This document shows, piece by piece, positions 9,993 to 18,012 of a stretch of 64,000 nucleotides of DNA. A program made the translations under genes and the position numbers. The notes under the pieces are model-generated. The model was not told the origin of the DNA. It made no database searches and saw only the letters and a program-made list of their open reading frames with translations. The DNA is from Paludisphaera rhizosphaerae (GTDB lineage Bacteria > Planctomycetota > Planctomycetia > Isosphaerales > Isosphaeraceae), in assembly GCF_011065895.1 (NCBI RefSeq), contig NZ_JAALCR010000003.1:337608-401607 (forward strand). Direction: 5' to 3'. The first letter of the stretch is position 1. The number at the start of each line of letters is the position of its first letter.

Positions 9993-10065
<73 letters not shown>

Positions 10066-10254
10066 CTTTAACATCATGCGAGCAAATGACTTAGGGAGAG
10101 AGGCCGCCCGAAGGAATTAAGGGGTGGCAGTGAAACTCGCCCAATCTCGCCCTTAAGTGCCTGTCAAGGCAGTATTTCTGCTGACAGCAAAACTCCGGGC
10201 CGTTGAGTCGCCTGTGGTTGCTGATCCTTTGCCGACGGCTACTAGAGCGCCGAC

Positions 10255-11205
10255 CTATCGCATCGCGTACATTGTGCGGGAATTGAACCAGCCGACGATG
10301 TCTTGCGGTGTGATGATGCTTGCGCAAGGCGTCGCCGATCGCGTCGATCACGGCGTCAGTCGAGCGGGCCGCGGCCGACCTCAGCTCGCCCTTCAGCTTC
10401 GAGAACATCTCCTCGATCGGCGAGAAGTCGGGACTCGAGGTGGGCAGCGGGATGACCTCCGCTCCGGCTCGGTGGACGGCCTTCAGCACCGCGGCCGCCT
10501 TATGCGGCGACACGTTGTCCCAGATCACGACGTCGCCGCGATGCAGCCGCGGGGCCAGGACCTTCTCCGCGTAAGTCTCGAATGCGGCGGCGTCGGTCGC
10601 CCCCCGGAACACGAACGGGGCCGTCGCGCCACGGAATCGCAGGTCGCAGATCAGCGTCAGCGTCGTCCACGACCGTGGGGCCGCCGCCTCCACTCGCCCC
10701 CCCTCGGGGGCGCGGCCGTAGGCCCGCGTCATCGACGTGTTCGCCCCGGTCTCATCCACGAAGACGAGGCGCCTCGGGTCGACGCCCGCCGCCGCCTCGA
10801 GGAACGCCGTGCGTCTCTCGCGACCCTCGGGCGTGTCGCGTTGGGCGTCGTGGAGGACCGTCTTCTTGCGGGTGATCCTCAATCTCTTCAACGCCCGCGC
10901 CACGGTCGTGCGACCGCAGTCGACGCCCAGGCGGTCGCGGAGTTCGTCCAGGGTGGCGTCGGGTTGCTCGCGGACCAGCCCCCAGAGCCGCTTGAGGTCG
11001 TCGCCGCCAAGAACAGGGCGACGTCCGCCGGCGTGCGGCCTGGGATCGACCGAGCCGGTCTGGCGATACCGCTTCAGGAGCCGAACGATCGTGGAGACGT
11101 CGACGAGGAACCGCGCGGCGATCTCACGCAAGGAACTAAGGAACTCTCGCCAGCCGCCACTGTCGCCAGGATTCGCTCGCGAAGATCTTGAGAGTAGGGT
11201 CGCAC
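10255..11205 (-). pseudogene. IS630-family transposase, two frameshifts
   Basis: Original start is GTG at 11205, 5 bp after an AGGAGGT site, reading VRPYSQDLRERILATVAAGE. The frame is then broken by an 8-bp tandem duplication (11130-11145). The body restores LREIAARFLVDVSTIVRLL (helix-turn-helix) and the DDE domain: FVDETG, VIWDNVSPHK and SPDFSPIEEMFSKLK. A second shift, one extra A near 10317-10319, separates this from the expected ending SIITPQDIVGWFNS...YAMR followed by TAG at 10255. Removing eight bases plus one gives a 942-nt frame (313 residues), normal for the family. An ATG at 11230 keeps the body open but gives an unrelated N-terminus. Confidence 0.85.
11130..11145. repeat. 8-bp tandem duplication AAGGAACT x2 inside the transposase
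   Basis: AAGGAACT occurs twice back to back. Removing one copy restores an uninterrupted transposase N-terminus in one frame, so this is the inactivating lesion. It could be replication slippage or the footprint left when another transposon with an 8-bp target duplication excised. Confidence 0.85.
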
Positions 11206-11353
11206 GATGCACCTCCTGACTACCCTCCATTGTATTCAGGGCAATCCGATCGGTCGGCGCTCTAAAGCATCGAACGGGCGATGGATTAGAACTTCATGTG
11301 ATTGCCGGGGTAACGAACGAGCCGCCATGCGGCCTATTGAGAGCCTTGCGACA

Positions 11354-12664
11354 ATGAAGACCTCACTGATCGTCGGATCGAGACCGGAATGCGATGTTGT
11401 GGTAACAGTCCCTTCGGTTTCGGGGCGTCATTGCCAGGCGATCCGCGAAGGAGATGTCGTTTACCTGCAGGATCTTGATTCGCGCAACGGAACTTACGTC
11501 AATGGCAACCGGCTCGCGGGGGCCGATAGGGTCGCGATCACGGCCTCGGATATTGTCCATTTGGCGAGCCATCAACTCGACCTTGCCCCGGTGTTCGCCG
11601 ATCTGTCGATGACCGCCGCCTCGACCGAGAGGTATCTGAGTCTTAAAGGGGATTCCGCCGTCGTCGGTCGCGGGATTGACTGCGATATCACCGTGGCTCT
11701 ACCGAACGTCTCCACGAGACACGCTCGGCTCGCCAGGGTCGGCGGCGAAGTCATGGTCGAAGACCTCGGGTCGGCGAATGGGACGTTCATCGATGACGTC
11801 CCGGTTAAGAAGCCAACCGTCATACCGCGCCAAGGCGTCCTAAGTCTGGGATCAAGCCGATTCCGGCTCACACAGGATTCTTGGGGCTCGCTCCCACTAG
11901 TGATCGCGTCTCAGCCGACGTCCGGTGTTCTTGGGACCGTTCCGCCCACGGTCGCTCCATCGCTGTCCGTTAAGGCCGCCGAGACGTCGGCTATCGGCCA
12001 GAGCAAGATGGCGATACTCGCGGCTGGAATCGCCGCCGCTCCGATGCTGGCCGGCCTTGGTGCGAGACTGGCGGACGGTGGAGGGTTCACCGCTCCGTTC
12101 ATCCTTGCATTGGCGGCACCGGCGCTGGGGGCGCTAGACGTGCTCGCTCTCAGCCAAATGGGCGTATCTGGACCGTGGGCCCTAGCGGGGGTTGTCGGGT
12201 CGATCGTCGTTCAGGCCGCGCTGCTCGGGGTCCTGGGGGCTCCCTCCGCGCTTCCTTCGGCTCTAATCATCCTCGCCCTCGCCGGATTCGTAGGAGCCGC
12301 GGCCGCAGCCTTGATCAAGTCTTGCGTGCCTGTAGGGACAGGACCGCAGGCTGCCGCCACGATCGGGCTTGTCGCTGCGATGGCGTCCCTGGGGGGACTC
12401 GTCCCGATGCTCCCCGACCTTCCCGCAATTCTCAGGCCCGCGGCTGCGTTGTCACCGACTCGTTGGGCCTTCGAAGGGCTCGTCCTCGCGGATTCGGCAG
12501 CGAAGCCTGTCGCAGAGCGGATCTTCCCCGCGGCGACTCACCAGATGGGAATGCCCGCGGATTGCGCGGCCTTGACGCTTATGGCGACGGGTCTCGTCGG
12601 TCTCATCGCCGCATTGCGAAACACTAACGGCGTCGGTCCTCAGCCGGCCTTCTCAGCTGCCTGA
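11354..12664 (+). CDS. Double FHA-domain protein with ABC-2-like membrane domain
   Basis: 436 residues. Two FHA domains: the first about residues 1-75 (VGSRPECDVVV, SVSGRH, DSRNGTYVNG), the second about 85-178 (VGRGIDCDITV, NVSTRHARL, SANGTFIDD). Both keep the G-R/S-R, S-x-x-H and N-G residues that bind phosphothreonine. After a linker come about five hydrophobic helices (residues 215-400) and the phrase LSPTRWAFEGLVLAD, which resembles the end of ABC-2 transporter membrane domains. Mycobacterial Rv1747 has FHA-FHA-ATPase-ABC2; here the ATPase is absent. It probably docks phosphorylated partners at the membrane, with the kinase at 14864-17368 as best candidate. Start ATG 11354 (11327 also possible). 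Confidence 0.8.
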   Translation: MKTSLIVGSRPECDVVVTVPSVSGRHCQAIREGDVVYLQDLDSRNGTYVNGNRLAGADRVAITASDIVHLASHQLDLAPVFADLSMTAASTERYLSLKGDSAVVGRGIDCDITVALPNVSTRHARLARVGGEVMVEDLGSANGTFIDDVPVKKPTVIPRQGVLSLGSSRFRLTQDSWGSLPLVIASQPTSGVLGTVPPTVAPSLSVKAAETSAIGQSKMAILAAGIAAAPMLAGLGARLADGGGFTAPFILALAAPALGALDVLALSQMGVSGPWALAGVVGSIVVQAALLGVLGAPSALPSALIILALAGFVGAAAAALIKSCVPVGTGPQAAATIGLVAAMASLGGLVPMLPDLPAILRPAAALSPTRWAFEGLVLADSAAKPVAERIFPAATHQMGMPADCAALTLMATGLVGLIAALRNTNGVGPQPAFSAA

Positions 12665-13797
12665 GCGGGCAATTTGTCCTTGAGCCGCTTGAGTCGTTCC
12701 GCCGCGCTCGGCAGAGCCCGATAATGCAACTCAAATAGCGGGGTGTCAGGCTCGTCCTCCGGCCTGACATCGCCCGAAAGGAATCCGTTCGCACCCGCAT
12801 ATCGGTCGAAGTTCGTCAGAAATGCGAGGCACTCCCGACGTGTGGAATAAAGCCTCTTGAGTTGTTGCAATGCCCAGTCGTCGGCCTCGAACTCCAGCGT
12901 CTCGCCATAGCTGCGAGGGAAAATGAACATCAGGAAAAGCTCGCCCGTCCCGTAGGGCAGGTCCTTCAAGGCAGGCGTTCGCAGGCATCGAATCGCGTCG
13001 CCTCGATCGACATGATGGATCTCATGCGCCAGCGCAAACTGCAGGACGTAATCCTGGTCCTCGCTGGCCCAGTTCATCAGGCCTCGCGTAACGTACACGT
13101 AGCCGCCTGGATGGGAGAAGGCGTTGACCGCGTCCGAATCAAGGATGTTAAAGCGGTATCGAACATCCTTTCTCTCGCAGTTCTTCAGGATGGGCTCCGC
13201 GGCTTCCATCAATCTGCGTTCCATGTCCTCGTTTTGGAATCGACGAGTCAACTGAGATTGCATCACCATGCGGTTGAGTTCTCTTCCCAACTCCAATTCC
13301 TGGTCGGCGGTTAATTGATCCAAATCCCACTTACGCTTGGCTTCGCGCGAGGCGAAATATGGGTTGATCGACTCCAAACCGATTGGTGCCTTCGCATCCA
13401 AGGTTGAGTCGCCGGCTTTGGGTGCAGCGTCGGGGGGGGCGGGTGCAGGCGAGGCGTCGACGGCTTTGGTCTCGGCAGGAGGCTGCGTTTCCGGAGTAGC
13501 GACGACGGGGGCCTCTGCAAGGGGCTGGGTCGTCGCAACCGATTTCGTCGCCAGGTCCGGGACCGGGACTGGCTCGCTCGCAGGGGCGACACGGATCGGC
13601 GGCGGGGCGGGCTCGAGAGAATTGGAACGATCGGGCTGATCGGCAGGAAGGGCGGCGGAACCCTCTCGCTGCGGCTCCGGCTGGGCCGCCGCCTCCTTCA
13701 AGCCAATCCTATGCACCTGCCCGAGTGTCCCAACGAACCAGCAAGAAACTATCACGTAGACAAGAGCTCCAGCGGCGATTCCGGCTTTCCTGGCCAC
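12640..13797 (-). CDS. Membrane-anchored M48-family metallopeptidase
   Basis: 385 residues, GTG start with GGAG 9 bp upstream. An N-terminal anchor (GIAAGALVYVIVSCWFVGTL) precedes about 100 residues rich in Pro/Ala, then a peptidase domain. The zinc motif HEIHH lies in FALAHEIHHVDRGDAI, the third ligand is probably in YGETLEFEADDWAL, and NAFSHPGGYVYVTRGLM is the substrate-edge strand typical of M48 (HtpX/BepA/Ste24-like). It should act on the outer side of the membrane. It is the last gene of the kinase operon and its end overlaps the FHA gene convergently by 25 bp. Confidence 0.85.
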   Translation of the reverse strand: MARKAGIAAGALVYVIVSCWFVGTLGQVHRIGLKEAAAQPEPQREGSAALPADQPDRSNSLEPAPPPIRVAPASEPVPVPDLATKSVATTQPLAEAPVVATPETQPPAETKAVDASPAPAPPDAAPKAGDSTLDAKAPIGLESINPYFASREAKRKWDLDQLTADQELELGRELNRMVMQSQLTRRFQNEDMERRLMEAAEPILKNCERKDVRYRFNILDSDAVNAFSHPGGYVYVTRGLMNWASEDQDYVLQFALAHEIHHVDRGDAIRCLRTPALKDLPYGTGELFLMFIFPRSYGETLEFEADDWALQQLKRLYSTRRECLAFLTNFDRYAGANGFLSGDVRPEDEPDTPLFELHYRALPSAAERLKRLKDKLPAQAAEKAG

Positions 13798-13817
13798 AGG
13801 GATGCTCCGGGAATAGA

Positions 13818-14816
13818 TCAGGGGTGGACCGGGGCGGGCTGGCCTTCGGCTTCGGGATTCTTGACCATTTCATAATGGGTGCGAAGCCTGGAGTAAATCT
13901 CCGGGAAAATCGCCTTCTCTTCGGGGGTGACCGCGGCACCGAACTGAAGGTTGTGGTTCCGCATGTATTGCCGCAGATCGTTGACCGTCGTGCCGGAGTA
14001 ATGGTCGAGATCGTGCAGGGCGAGTTGGAGTCTGTGGGTCTTGAGCATCTCGACCGTACTCTCCAACTCGCGGATGCGCTGAGCGCCCTCGATGTTGCGC
14101 CGATCGTTGGGGCGATCGCGAAACGCTCGTTCGAGGTCGGTCCCCATGTTCTTGACGGCCGCGGAAAGCCTGTCGATGGCCGCGATACTCGTCGCGCCCT
14201 CAACCTCCTGCTCCAGGACATTCGCCAGCGCGTCCTCGTAGTCCTTCCGGACGCCGTCGAAGCGGGGGTCCTGGAACGCCAGGGGCCATTTGCCTCGCTG
14301 GCGGAGGACCAGGCGCCTCATCGAGAAGCTCTGAGCCCCTAGCCCCGCCACCTTGAACGGGAGCCTGCGAACCTCGTCGACGGTCAGGCCGATCGCCGGG
14401 GTGCTGTGAACGGACTCCGAGTTCACACCGGAGTTCATCTTCTCAAGGATCTCGTTGAGCGCATCCCCCGTGTCCACGTCGCGTGCCTCCGGCGAGTTGA
14501 GGATGCGGTCGTGGATCTTGCGGTAGTTCTCCAACCGCTGCATCTGCAGTTGGTGGCGGTGGATGGCGTTAAGGTAATTCTGCATGGCCAAGGACGCGGC
14601 GACGTACTCATTGAAACGAATCCAGGTGTTGAGGTGGATGGACTCCGCCTGCGCAGAAGACTTCGCCCCGAGCCCGCGTGCCAGTTCGGCGAAACCCAAG
14701 CCGCGCAGATAGTCACCCTCGGGGGTAGAACCCGGTTCAAGGACGAGGACCTGGGCACGTCCTGACGTGGCGGCGCTCAGAAGTATGAGGACGGCCAGGC
14801 TCAAAGGCTTCCACAT
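13818..14816 (-). CDS. Secreted helical protein of unknown function
   Basis: 332 residues with a signal peptide (MWKPLSLAVLILLSAATSGR). The mature part is mostly alpha-helical and charged, with long heptad-like stretches (about residues 75-115, then RRNIEGAQRIRELESTVEML). I recognise no family. The ATG at 14816 was chosen because GGGAGG lies about 9 bp upstream and the signal peptide begins there; the frame remains open to 15068 inside the kinase gene. It is the middle gene of the kinase-protein-peptidase operon (47 bp after the kinase, 20 bp before the peptidase), so it may be an extracytoplasmic partner of the kinase sensor domain or a peptidase substrate. Confidence 0.7.
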   Translation of the reverse strand: MWKPLSLAVLILLSAATSGRAQVLVLEPGSTPEGDYLRGLGFAELARGLGAKSSAQAESIHLNTWIRFNEYVAASLAMQNYLNAIHRHQLQMQRLENYRKIHDRILNSPEARDVDTGDALNEILEKMNSGVNSESVHSTPAIGLTVDEVRRLPFKVAGLGAQSFSMRRLVLRQRGKWPLAFQDPRFDGVRKDYEDALANVLEQEVEGATSIAAIDRLSAAVKNMGTDLERAFRDRPNDRRNIEGAQRIRELESTVEMLKTHRLQLALHDLDHYSGTTVNDLRQYMRNHNLQFGAAVTPEEKAIFPEIYSRLRTHYEMVKNPEAEGQPAPVHP

Positions 14817-14863
14817 CAATCGGACCTCCCGCTGTTGAATTCGGGGCGTGACTTCGTTGTGGA

Positions 14864-17368
14864 TCATCGGCCCCTCTGCAAGGCCCGGATTCGGGCGTCG
14901 TATTCGGCCTGGTTCTGCCTCACGATCCGAGCGGACGCCGCGGCGACTTGACTGAAGAATCTGTCGAACGCCGCCGCGCGTCGGTCGGCGGCGGCGTATG
15001 ATCGGGCCTTCTTCACCTTGCTCCGAATCGTGGAGACGAACTTCTCGCCGCCAAGCCGTTCGACCCATTTCGCTCCATCGACGTAACCGCTGTAGCCATT
15101 GTCGCCTGACGCCTCGATAGCAACGAAATTTCGGTCGAGTTCGCCAGCGGCGAGTCGGACCTTGTCGTATCCCAAGAGAACTTCCATGGCGACGATCGTC
15201 AGGATGGCGTCGCCGCCAGTCTTCGGTGCGTGGACGTGAATCCGAACGACGGTCGGAACCTCGGGCTTGCCATCACCGCGGAGTTTTAATTCCGCGATCT
15301 CCTGCTCGTAGATCGACGCCATCATTTGATCGACCAGGAGTTTAACCTCGGACTTGCCGCCATTTCGATGATAGTCGAAGTACCCCCGGCCCAGGCTGAC
15401 GTTGTAGCCTTCCTTGGTGTCGATCCTGACTCCGATCCCGCCGGGGTACTTCGTCGATCTTTCGAAGGGAACGCGGCCGATCAGCAGGATGTCGGCGATC
15501 TCTATTTCACGACCGTCGAAATCACTCATCTCATCTTGGAGGCGGCTCAGGCTCACGGGATTCTTGATCTCGTTCCCCGGGTCGGGCGAACCGGCGGTAG
15601 CCAACGGCGACGATGACGCCGCGTCGATCGCGGGCGTCGGAGTGGTTGTCGCGGTCGCGGCAGGTTTCGTGGCTTCGATGAAGGAGGGCTCCGAGACCGA
15701 CGTCGAGAGGTTCGATGTTGGAGGAGGCGTCCGGAACGGGAGGGGTGCGTTTTCTTGGCTCGCGTCGACGATTCGAGACTCGTCGTTGAGCTTCGGTCTC
15801 GGGGCCGGCTGCGCGACCGCTGCCGGTTCGCGTGGTGGAGCGTCTGTCTTCGCCAGCATCGGTCCGACTGTCCTCGCAAGAGTCGACGCGATCGCGTTTG
15901 GCGGCGTTTTGGTCGCCTTCCGAGCCACCGGCGGCGTTGCTGTCCGACCCAGGTAAAGTCCCGCCGGCACGACGACCACCATCAAACACGCAGCGGCCGC
16001 TCCAATAAGCCTCAGCCTTCCGTGCCCAGACGCTTCTGACGAGTCTTCCGGTTCCTCGGGCTGCTCTCCCGAGGTGGGTGGTTCAAGGATGGTCGGGGAG
16101 CCGAGTGGATTCCGCGAGACGAACGGCGCAGCTTCGAGAACGGTCATTCCTTCCCGCGGCGGACTAAACGCGTCGGCTGACTGTTCGAGAATGGTCCTCC
16201 CACCAGGCGGGGGGCTAGGCCGTTCGACCAGAGTCATCCCGCCCAGAGAAGACTGCGATCCGAAGGGGGGGGCTTCGATGATCGTCGCTCCGCCTGTGGG
16301 CGATTGATGCGTCACGGCCCTCTCGCCCGACTTGGCCGCGACTTCCTTCATGATTGGAGCGAGAGCCGCGGCCACCTCGGCGGGGGTCTGGAAGCGGTCG
16401 GCCGGACTCTTGGCCATCATCCTCGCGACCAGGGCTGCCAACGCCGGGGGGACGTCGGGACGCATCTCATTGAGCGGTTTCGCCTGCACTGAATGGTGTG
16501 CGCTGAGGATCTCGTGAAGGCTGCCGGAGAAGGGGGGACGTCCGGCCAGAAGGCAGTAGAAGGTGCAGCCCAGGCTATAGACGTCGGCTCGAATGTCGGT
16601 TTTCAGGGCGTCCTTCGTCTGCTCCGGGGCGACGTACTCAGGCGTACCCATCATCCCGCACTGCTGCGTCGGTCCGCTATCGATGTCGGCCTCGCTAGAA
16701 ACCTTCGCCAGGCCGAAGTCGAGAATCTTGATTGTCGGGCGTCGCCCCTCGCGAGCGACCATTAAATTGCTGGGCTTGACGTCGCGATGGACCATTCCGC
16801 GCTCATACGCGTGCTGAAGACCGTGGGCGGCCTGCCGGATGAAATTGCAGGCGATCGGTACGTCCAGCCGCCCCTTGGCTTCTACGAGCCTGGAGAGGTC
16901 GCATCCCTCGACGTACTCCATGGCGAAGATGATGCTCTCGCCAAGGCGAGAGGCGCTGAAGGCGGTCACGATGTTCGGATGATGGAGTTGGGCGGCGGCC
17001 CGAATTTCCTGAAGGAATCGGTCCATCACCGTTTTCTGCTTCACGAGGTGAGCGCCAACCACCTTGAGGACCTCTTTGCGTCCCATGAAGATGTTCTCGG
17101 CCAAATAGACCACCCCCATGCCGCCTCGCCCCAACTCTCGGATGATCTTGTAGTCCGGATGCAGCGCCAGATCGGGAGGGATCGGAGTGCCGCTTTGAGC
17201 CCGCGGGGCCACGACGCCAGGGGAGGTGGAGAGAGGAGTGCAGCGACATCGGCACTCCTGGCAATCGGCCAAGTGTGCGGTGATCGCTCCGAGGAGAATC
17301 GAGTCCAACGACCCGCGACTGTAGCTCGCAAGGGTCTCGGCGCTCGGATGCTCGACTTTGTTAGGCAT
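14864..17368 (-). CDS. Receptor-type Ser/Thr protein kinase (PknB-like) with threonine-motif repeats
   Basis: 834 residues. N-terminal cysteine/histidine cluster (HLADCQECRCRC, about 32-43, anti-sigma zinc-finger-like), then a full Hanks kinase domain (about 73-340): GRGGMGVVY, Lys102, HRDVKPSNL with D196, DFG 217-219, and GTPEYVAPEQ. A linker (355-435) holds five T-hydrophobic-hydrophobic-E motifs at T362, T379, T392, T409 and T426. One membrane helix (about 452-473) leads to an extracytoplasmic domain with no recognised fold. It phosphorylates Ser/Thr, probably itself and FHA-binding partners. ATG 17368 starts the zinc-finger segment; 17410 is an alternative. First gene of a three-gene operon. 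Confidence 0.9.
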   Translation of the reverse strand: MPNKVEHPSAETLASYSRGSLDSILLGAITAHLADCQECRCRCTPLSTSPGVVAPRAQSGTPIPPDLALHPDYKIIRELGRGGMGVVYLAENIFMGRKEVLKVVGAHLVKQKTVMDRFLQEIRAAAQLHHPNIVTAFSASRLGESIIFAMEYVEGCDLSRLVEAKGRLDVPIACNFIRQAAHGLQHAYERGMVHRDVKPSNLMVAREGRRPTIKILDFGLAKVSSEADIDSGPTQQCGMMGTPEYVAPEQTKDALKTDIRADVYSLGCTFYCLLAGRPPFSGSLHEILSAHHSVQAKPLNEMRPDVPPALAALVARMMAKSPADRFQTPAEVAAALAPIMKEVAAKSGERAVTHQSPTGGATIIEAPPFGSQSSLGGMTLVERPSPPPGGRTILEQSADAFSPPREGMTVLEAAPFVSRNPLGSPTILEPPTSGEQPEEPEDSSEASGHGRLRLIGAAAACLMVVVVPAGLYLGRTATPPVARKATKTPPNAIASTLARTVGPMLAKTDAPPREPAAVAQPAPRPKLNDESRIVDASQENAPLPFRTPPPTSNLSTSVSEPSFIEATKPAATATTTPTPAIDAASSSPLATAGSPDPGNEIKNPVSLSRLQDEMSDFDGREIEIADILLIGRVPFERSTKYPGGIGVRIDTKEGYNVSLGRGYFDYHRNGGKSEVKLLVDQMMASIYEQEIAELKLRGDGKPEVPTVVRIHVHAPKTGGDAILTIVAMEVLLGYDKVRLAAGELDRNFVAIEASGDNGYSGYVDGAKWVERLGGEKFVSTIRSKVKKARSYAAADRRAAAFDRFFSQVAAASARIVRQNQAEYDARIRALQRGR

Positions 17369-18012
17369 GATGCACTCTCGACTTCGGCTCCGGGGTATGC
17401 GGTTACTCATCTAGATGTTGATCTGGGACTACTGCATGCCAATCTGAAACCCTAATTGGGAGCCACCAAGGAAGTCGTGGGAACGGATTTAGAGCTGTTG
17501 AGTGTGCGCCCGTGATCGGCGTAATAGGTATGAACGAGGAGATCGGCTATAGGTGTCGGACTCATCGGAGCCCGGCCCGAACTTCCTGTGCTACGTGGGT
17601 GCGGCATGGCCCTGTCCATTGATCTCGATCGGCATTCCATCGAGAACGAGCTCAAGACGTGGAGGTCGCCCCGATCGCGACATATTCTGCCCTCTCGGTT
17701 CCGACGGCAGACCTTCGACAGGCGAACCTGGCGCAAGAGAGTCCACTGCCGTTCGGAAACTACAAATCGAAATTCTCTTCTTGTTACGAATCATGGCCAG
17801 GTGAGTGTTGGGCCTCGAGAGGGATTCTATACACGCTTGCACGCATCAAATCATGCTTTAATGCGTGCTGTTCGGAGGGGCGAGGGTTAAGGATAGAGAA
17901 TCCGATAGTGGCCGCAGACTTTCGAGTGATGATCGCCGCCTGGGCTCCTCAGGCGGTCGGCCGAGAAACTCGCAAGGTGTAGGTCGAGCTAAGCGCTCCG
18001 ATCCTGTACCAC
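17369..18012. other. Gene-free stretch at the right end of the island
   Basis: About 640 bp upstream of the kinase operon. Open frames on both strands are short and overlap, base composition is less GC-rich than in neighbouring genes, and I see no protein family. It must contain the kinase operon promoter (leftward). Probably decayed mobile DNA. Confidence 0.4.

Follow-up and report, generated by a model that had tools for sequence, protein, structure and literature searches.

The closest described system is that of Rv1747 and PknF in Mycobacterium tuberculosis. Rv1747 carries two FHA domains before an ABC membrane domain, possesses an ATPase domain and an Arg in FHA I (PMC5549992), is encoded in an operon with pknF (PMC3908365), and forms condensates on phosphorylation by PknF, the neighbouring membrane serine/threonine kinase (PMC9312465). 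The phosphothreonine-binding residues of Rad53 and their counterparts in Rv1747 FHA I are Gly, Arg, Ser, His and Asn (PMC5549992). In a second pair of the same organism, the phosphorylated juxtamembrane part of PknB recruits FhaA (PMC12077195). The stretch analysed here, referred to as the window, comprises 64,000 nucleotides of Paludisphaera rhizosphaerae (contig NZ_JAALCR010000003.1, positions 337,608 to 401,607, forward strand), and holds a gene cassette of a membrane kinase, an FHA membrane protein, a predicted secreted protein (P332) and an M48 metallopeptidase. As the preliminary description had proposed from the DNA alone, the locus resembles the PknF/Rv1747 pair in having two FHA domains and an ABCG membrane domain next to a membrane kinase; control by FHA-phosphothreonine binding, predicted here, would be a further shared trait. 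In contrast to Rv1747, the window protein has no ATPase and has Gly-Ser in FHA1, the two genes converge, the kinase carries a threonine array, and P332 and M48 belong to the cassette. In comparison with PknB/FhaA, the kinase bears five regular motif copies, and its FHA partner, encoded in the same cassette, is a transporter-like membrane protein without an ATPase. On the available sequence evidence, we give an even chance to a conserved membrane cassette in which the kinase autophosphorylates its linker array, which recruits and clusters the FHA domains of the ABCG-type partner. The features of the two proteins, in window positions, are:

11354..12664, plus strand: FHA-FHA-ABCG-type membrane protein without ATPase, 436 residues
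11369..11563, plus strand: FHA1, residues 6-70, Gly-Ser instead of Gly-Arg at the phosphate contact
11636..11875, plus strand: FHA2, residues 95-174, five of five canonical phosphothreonine-site residues
11984..12637, plus strand: ABCG-type transmembrane domain, residues ~211-428, without a motif kept in ATPase-bearing relatives
14864..17410, minus strand: membrane serine/threonine kinase, 848-residue open frame, stop at 14864, start probably 17368
16385..17152, minus strand: kinase domain, residues 87-342 of the 848-residue frame, with HRD and DFG motifs
16082..16285, minus strand: five T-[ILV]-[ILV]-E motifs at T376, T393, T406, T423 and T440 (848-residue frame)
15947..16009, minus strand: predicted transmembrane helix of the kinase, ~residues 468-488 (sequence reading, hydrophobicity rule)
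14867..15565, minus strand: outer domain of the kinase, predicted to be extracytoplasmic, resembling the one in cassette kinases from a different kinase lineage

The kinase is composed of the catalytic domain, the linker with its five motifs, a single predicted membrane helix and a C-terminal region that is predicted to be extracytoplasmic. The array threonines are located between the kinase domain and the predicted membrane helix, as in a docking pair of the PknB/FhaA type. The motif spacing of 17, 13, 17 and 17 residues agrees with the preliminary description, the earlier T362-T426 being the present numbering minus 14 due to the choice of start, and no other T-[ILV]-[ILV]-E occurs in the kinase. 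Both genes were found where they had been placed, and the kinase start chosen at that time, 17368, is probably correct. Shuffles of linker residues 350-466 contained 0.02 motifs on average and 0 of 200,000 reached five. Tandem Repeats Finder detected nothing at score 30 in the array DNA, the array units of 51 base pairs (bp) have 21-29 bases in common, and each of the five motifs is encoded by a different codon string; the likeness of the units therefore lies at the protein level and does not stem from a recent DNA duplication. In a test for PASTA kinases, the score with NCBIfam PknB_PASTA_kin was 244.4 bits, covering residues 87-362 only, against a cut-off of 450 bits.

Arrays of other forms were found in the linkers of further cassette kinases (loci are numbered with L and genomes with G). 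Eight S-G-T-like units, six of them with T-M-K, were present in L121, six [SR]-G-T-M-I-V units in L068, four G-T-M-K units and three more in L122, and three units in L070. The arrays of L069 and L119 were weaker, and the linkers of L061, L062, L063, L071, L138 and L074 had no or almost no array. With a pattern chosen post hoc, at least four sites were counted in 7 of 12 cassette kinases (L069, L119 and L070 among the seven) versus 0 of 55 other kinases, the latter being a sample of similarity-fetched loci, kinases in other fetched loci and 30 loci from 372 Pfam matches of five genomes. In this count, 21 kinases had no predicted membrane helix, those outside cassettes being excluded, and 12 entries were duplicates; the cassette linkers of L062, L070 and L071, cut at 400 residues, extend past the membrane helix. 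An earlier background pattern requiring [GS] before T was rejected, as the window array scored 0 and duplicates of cassette kinases entered the background. It is highly improbable that the array is a functionless low-complexity linker and the gene order a relic. The absence of an array in the nearest relatives, L061 and L062, would fit such a reading, but the shuffle result, the comparison with other kinases and the lack of a DNA-level repeat oppose it, as do T-x-x-E motifs in soluble adaptors and distant FHA-kinases (see below) and a gene neighbourhood kept across genera.

In the 436-residue protein, two stretches were matched by Pfam FHA (E 4.8e-32). The ABC2_membrane_3 match was below the Pfam cut-off with E 0.027, though the structure model showed a strong fold match of the membrane domain to ABCG membrane domains, with the ABCG fold retained across the entire domain. 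The ABC-2-like helices reported earlier as fused to the FHA domains were confirmed in this way. The reported absence of the ATPase was upheld as well, since the protein was searched for Walker A and signature motifs and neither these nor an ATPase Pfam match were detected. The site residues of FHA2, G105, R106, S120, H123 and N142, are all kept in 11 of 11 orthologues. The corresponding residues of FHA1 are G8, S9, S23, H26 and N45, with Ser at the position of the phosphate-contacting Arg in each of the 11 orthologues. The description of two intact FHA domains is therefore fully valid for FHA2 only. Because all five site residues are present in FHA2 and the Arg is replaced in FHA1, FHA2 is likely the phosphate reader.

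As in Rv1747/PknF, the kinase could instead phosphorylate the linker of the FHA protein (~residues 175-210), and the kinase array would then serve, for example, other FHA proteins of the cell. The linker does contain Thr residues, the model confidence is low at 179-214, Rv1747 condensates upon phosphorylation by PknF (PMC9312465), and 26 FHA matches were counted in the window's genome. However, no tandem motif was seen in this linker by eye, it is poorly conserved across the 11 orthologues, and arrays are enriched among the cassette kinases; we consider this alternative unlikely.

A profile search of 45 Isosphaeraceae genomes (E at most 1e-25) resulted in 16 FHA-membrane proteins in 15 genomes, and the ATPase was absent in 15 of the 16. 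The motif E..[VIALT][YFL].[RK]E[RK] was found in 0 of 48 ATPase-less versus 11 of 11 ATPase-bearing relatives; L225 was scored as ATPase-bearing despite its signature VSGGQ, as the ATPase region is present, and P0007 and P0016, identical in the membrane domain to L062 and L066, were omitted as duplicates. The protein search admitted only lengths of 0.55-1.75 times the query, by which long ATPase-bearing relatives are under-sampled; the whole-genome profile search had no such length limit, and P0002 (240 residues) is probably a fragment. Within the 16 cassette loci (8.5-24 kilobases, kb), to which the search was confined, the only ATPase gene was that inside the FHA protein of L138 (G065), a rearranged cassette whose FHA protein has three FHA domains and retains the ATPase and its motifs. 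Two options had been offered in the preliminary description, a phospho-dependent membrane scaffold and a channel needing an external ATPase. The scaffold is favoured and the external ATPase disfavoured, because the ATPase-less relatives have also lost the motif and no other ATPase was found in the loci. Accordingly, it is quite improbable that the FHA protein has kept a transporter or channel function, with an ATPase encoded elsewhere docking on its ABCG-type domain and FHA-phosphothreonine binding acting as the switch, even though the ABCG fold is kept across the modelled membrane domain and the L138 cassette keeps an ATPase in the same gene.

Two further genes lie on the minus strand between the FHA protein and the kinase:

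12640..13797, minus strand: M48 metallopeptidase, predicted N-terminal membrane anchor (sequence reading), HEIHH and EFEADDWA
13818..14816, minus strand: P332, predicted to be secreted from its signal-peptide-like start, modelled as mostly helical

The start of P332 was set at 14816 instead of 15068, since the alignment with homologues begins near this Met, which opens the signal-peptide-like stretch. The intergenic gaps, 47 bp between kinase and P332 and 20 bp between P332 and M48, are short, which suggests that these three genes form an operon. The M48 and FHA genes are convergent and their 3' ends overlap by 25 bp. The zinc motifs HExxH and ExxxD of M48 are present as HEIHH and EFEADDWA (Pfam Peptidase_M48, E 1e-12); the scores with NCBIfam BepA, 27.8 of 570 bits, and LoiP, 19.9 of 365 bits, were far under both cut-offs. 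P332 had no match in Pfam or NCBIfam, and the fold searches yielded nothing usable. Its relatives are named hypothetical or uncharacterized in the sources, one also DUF4398. Of the 45 Isosphaeraceae genomes, 42 contain the family, frequently with more than one copy, which makes it the most widespread part of the cassette. In a sample of 294 genomes from the whole phylum, 6 had it, one of them being the window's genome; a weak match was obtained in G111. In 25 of 60 P332 loci fetched subsequently, two small FHA frames were located immediately upstream of P332, so P332 is FHA-linked outside this cassette too. These loci (L115, L123-L125, L127-L129, L131, L134-L137, L139-L141, L143-L145, L148, L154, L167, L169, L170, L172 and L173) possibly represent the ancestral P332 locus.

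The initial search covered 59 genomes (the window's own and 58 relatives), and FHA-membrane homologues adjoined kinase homologues in several of the 59. The family to which the 45 genomes belong is taken to be Isosphaeraceae from the named members SH-PL62, Aquisphaera giovannonii, Singulisphaera and Tundrisphaera; one P332 record is itself named Isosphaeraceae. Absence of the gene pair from every other genome had been set beforehand as a ground for rejection; the cassette is kept in relatives, and both P332 and M48 were beside 13 of the 16 FHA-membrane proteins (window, L061, L062, L063, L066, L067, L068, L069, L071, L072, L119, L120 and L138). The earlier view of a two-gene pair holds as to the co-conservation of both genes, but the unit is a larger cassette with P332, M48 and, in 13 of 45 genomes, a soluble double-FHA adaptor. 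L070, at a contig end, has P332 and the kinase, the G018 cassette is split across contigs, and L064 (G019:C33) is the sole FHA-membrane protein of the 16 showing neither P332 nor M48. A kinase gene was present in the locus of 11 of 16 FHA-membrane proteins (G018 included); that of L064 is ~7 kb off, and the contig of L067 ends with no kinase in its locus. The order FHA protein, kinase, P332 is co-linear in L070 and L122, with M48 additionally in L122. The L061 genes were found with the protein and profile searches and were missed by greedy gene calling. A contig scan with A2 gave general FHA proteins, P332 occurring in 0 of 80 loci among the matches listed.

It was also considered whether the cassette is mainly devoted to envelope proteolysis or quality control by M48 and P332, the kinase and FHA parts merely setting the level. 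HExxH was present in 14 of 15 loci where M48 was found, weak similarities to BepA and LoiP exist far under the cut-offs, and P332 is the most widespread part. On the other hand, such a function leaves the arrays, the T-x-x-E of the adaptor and the probable swapping of kinase domains next to a conserved type of outer domain unexplained, and four deep relatives possess P332 and FHA genes with M48 undetected. This explanation is rather unlikely. The M48 of L071 (7728-8774, minus strand) has no HExxH, and a catalytic role may be absent there. In the same neighbourhood, L071:2112-7625 (plus strand) encodes an 1838-residue protein in which three FHA domains precede a long region where a P-loop-like stretch was noted by eye.

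The soluble double-FHA adaptor was found in 17 places of the 13 genomes, 12 of which are in cassette loci, and no homologue was matched in the window's genome. Its N-terminus contained T[LV][IL]E in 8 of 14 loci and the looser T-x-x-E in 12 of 14; in one of the two without it, L121, the N-terminus is lost at a contig end. The adaptor was present in 8 of 8 array-less versus 1 of 5 array-bearing cassettes (p 0.007), and, with the weak arrays of L069 and L119 counted as arrays, in 6 of 6 versus 3 of 7 (p 0.07); the rows are related and the p values are not strict probabilities. The automatic count had given p 0.035 by including L068's own FHA-membrane protein, which was corrected by hand to p 0.007. 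The motif of the window linker has the same form as that of the adaptor, which, together with the absence of the adaptor from the window's genome, suggests that array and adaptor are two ways of supplying the same ligand. The adaptor may be likened to GarA and OdhI, small FHA proteins with an N-terminal Thr motif, and differs from them in having T-x-x-E and two FHA domains. Among NCBIfam families, FhaB matched it best, with 51.9 of 125 bits, under the cut-off. In L214 (G006), the N-terminal part of a soluble FHA protein homologous to the adaptor has three T-L-[TK]-E-P units, a further tandem form of the motif.

Outside the family, four genomes from two further families of the class each have a P332 homologue directly behind an FHA membrane protein (L335-L338); these are four of the five P332 matches outside Isosphaeraceae. 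The preceding gene in L336 and L337 encodes an FHA-kinase with repeats ahead of the kinase domain: four R-Q-T-[MI]-x-E in L336 (2 of 20,000 shuffles) and five R-x-T-[IM]-x-E in L337 (0 of 20,000 shuffles). The FHA-kinase is replaced in L335 and L338 by a soluble adaptor with T-x-x-E. Such loci of other Planctomycetia, for example in G040, resemble the window cassette in their P332 homologue and FHA membrane protein, and those of L336 and L337 also in an FHA-kinase that carries T[IM]xE in tandem. Their FHA protein differs in that it seems to span the membrane with one helix only and to bear an outer domain; no ABCG domain was found in it, and no M48 was detected in the four loci. The outer domain of L337 gave a weak trypsin-like Pfam match (E 0.004, under the cut-off) and that of L336 none; no catalytic His was seen by eye in these outer domains. 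Threonine arrays linked to P332 and FHA proteins were located on three branches of the kinase tree, where the two deep FHA-kinases stand beside another long branch and their placement was flagged as unsure.

The cassette kinases fall on two branches of this tree, eight forming a clade with 100/100 support and five lying within another clade. The C-terminal domains of the window and L062 kinases were compared with those of seven cassette kinases of the other kind by hhalign, resulting in a probability of 88% and P 3e-6, against 0.6% and 0.09 in the reversed control; a smaller comparison with fewer sequences gave 12%. As similar outer domains are joined to catalytic domains of different lineages, it is probable that one kinase domain was swapped for another and the outer domain retained. 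This points to the outer domain as the part of the kinase tied to P332 or M48.

In the proposed mechanism, P332, the M48 peptidase and the kinase outer domain would supply or process an envelope signal, upon which the kinase would phosphorylate its own juxtamembrane linker at the T-x-x-E sites. FHA2 would bind phosphorylated T-x-x-E, and FHA1 may have a different or weaker role. With several phosphothreonines and several FHA domains, the proteins could cluster multivalently at the membrane, in the way that Rv1747 is reported to do with PknF. In cassettes without an array, the soluble double-FHA adaptor with T-x-x-E may take the same role. Precedents exist for each half, the PknB juxtamembrane part with FhaA (PMC12077195) and the Rv1747 condensates (PMC9312465). 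Tentatively, with a chance somewhat short of even, the FHA protein of Isosphaeraceae may derive from an ABCG-type transporter that was stripped of ATPase and coupling helix but retained the FHA domains and the membrane fold, and may now serve as a multivalent scaffold for a tandem-phosphothreonine kinase in class-wide planctomycete envelope signalling (kinase, FHA membrane protein, secreted P332 and peptidase), the T-x-x-E ligand coming from arrays or the adaptor.

Several results weigh against such a mechanism. Phosphorylation and FHA binding are predictions for all members, and the phosphate-contacting Arg of FHA1 is replaced. The FHA-membrane protein is confined to 15 of the 45 family genomes, no kinase was found within the fetched stretch of L066, L072 and L120, and the L138 system may still transport. 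Arrays are absent or weak in 8 of 13 cassette kinases (with tighter linker limits), only 1 of 5 in the window's branch has one, and the cassettes of L061 and L062, the closest relatives from the same genus, are without it. The +3 residue is Glu in the window and Leu, Val or Ile in L068, L121 and L122, so a single FHA specificity cannot serve all branches.

If true, the proposed mechanism would mean that a transporter fold was reused as a signalling scaffold after loss of the ATPase, and would represent a bacterial counterpart to the multi-site docking tails of receptor kinases. P332, a secreted family without a name, would gain its first context, and the kinase-rich planctomycetes, five genomes of which had 63-101 kinase Pfam matches each, would gain a candidate phosphothreonine motif that is concrete and countable. 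To our knowledge, the partners of planctomycete kinases are mostly unknown. No description of the cassette was found in the openly licensed papers searched, and the accessible excerpts of PMC11032199, in which planctomycete kinases were surveyed, do not mention it. L340 is a kinase locus without the cassette.

Upstream of the FHA gene, an insertion sequence of the IS630 type was located at 10243-11264 of the window, with a transposase frame at 10091-11230 (DDE_3, Pfam). It is flanked by 24-bp inverted repeats, 88% complementary and with TA at the ends. Its end lies ~90 bp upstream of the start codon of the FHA gene, whose promoter it may have replaced. The element is adjoined by a tRNA-Lys (CTT) gene at 9993-10066 on the plus strand.

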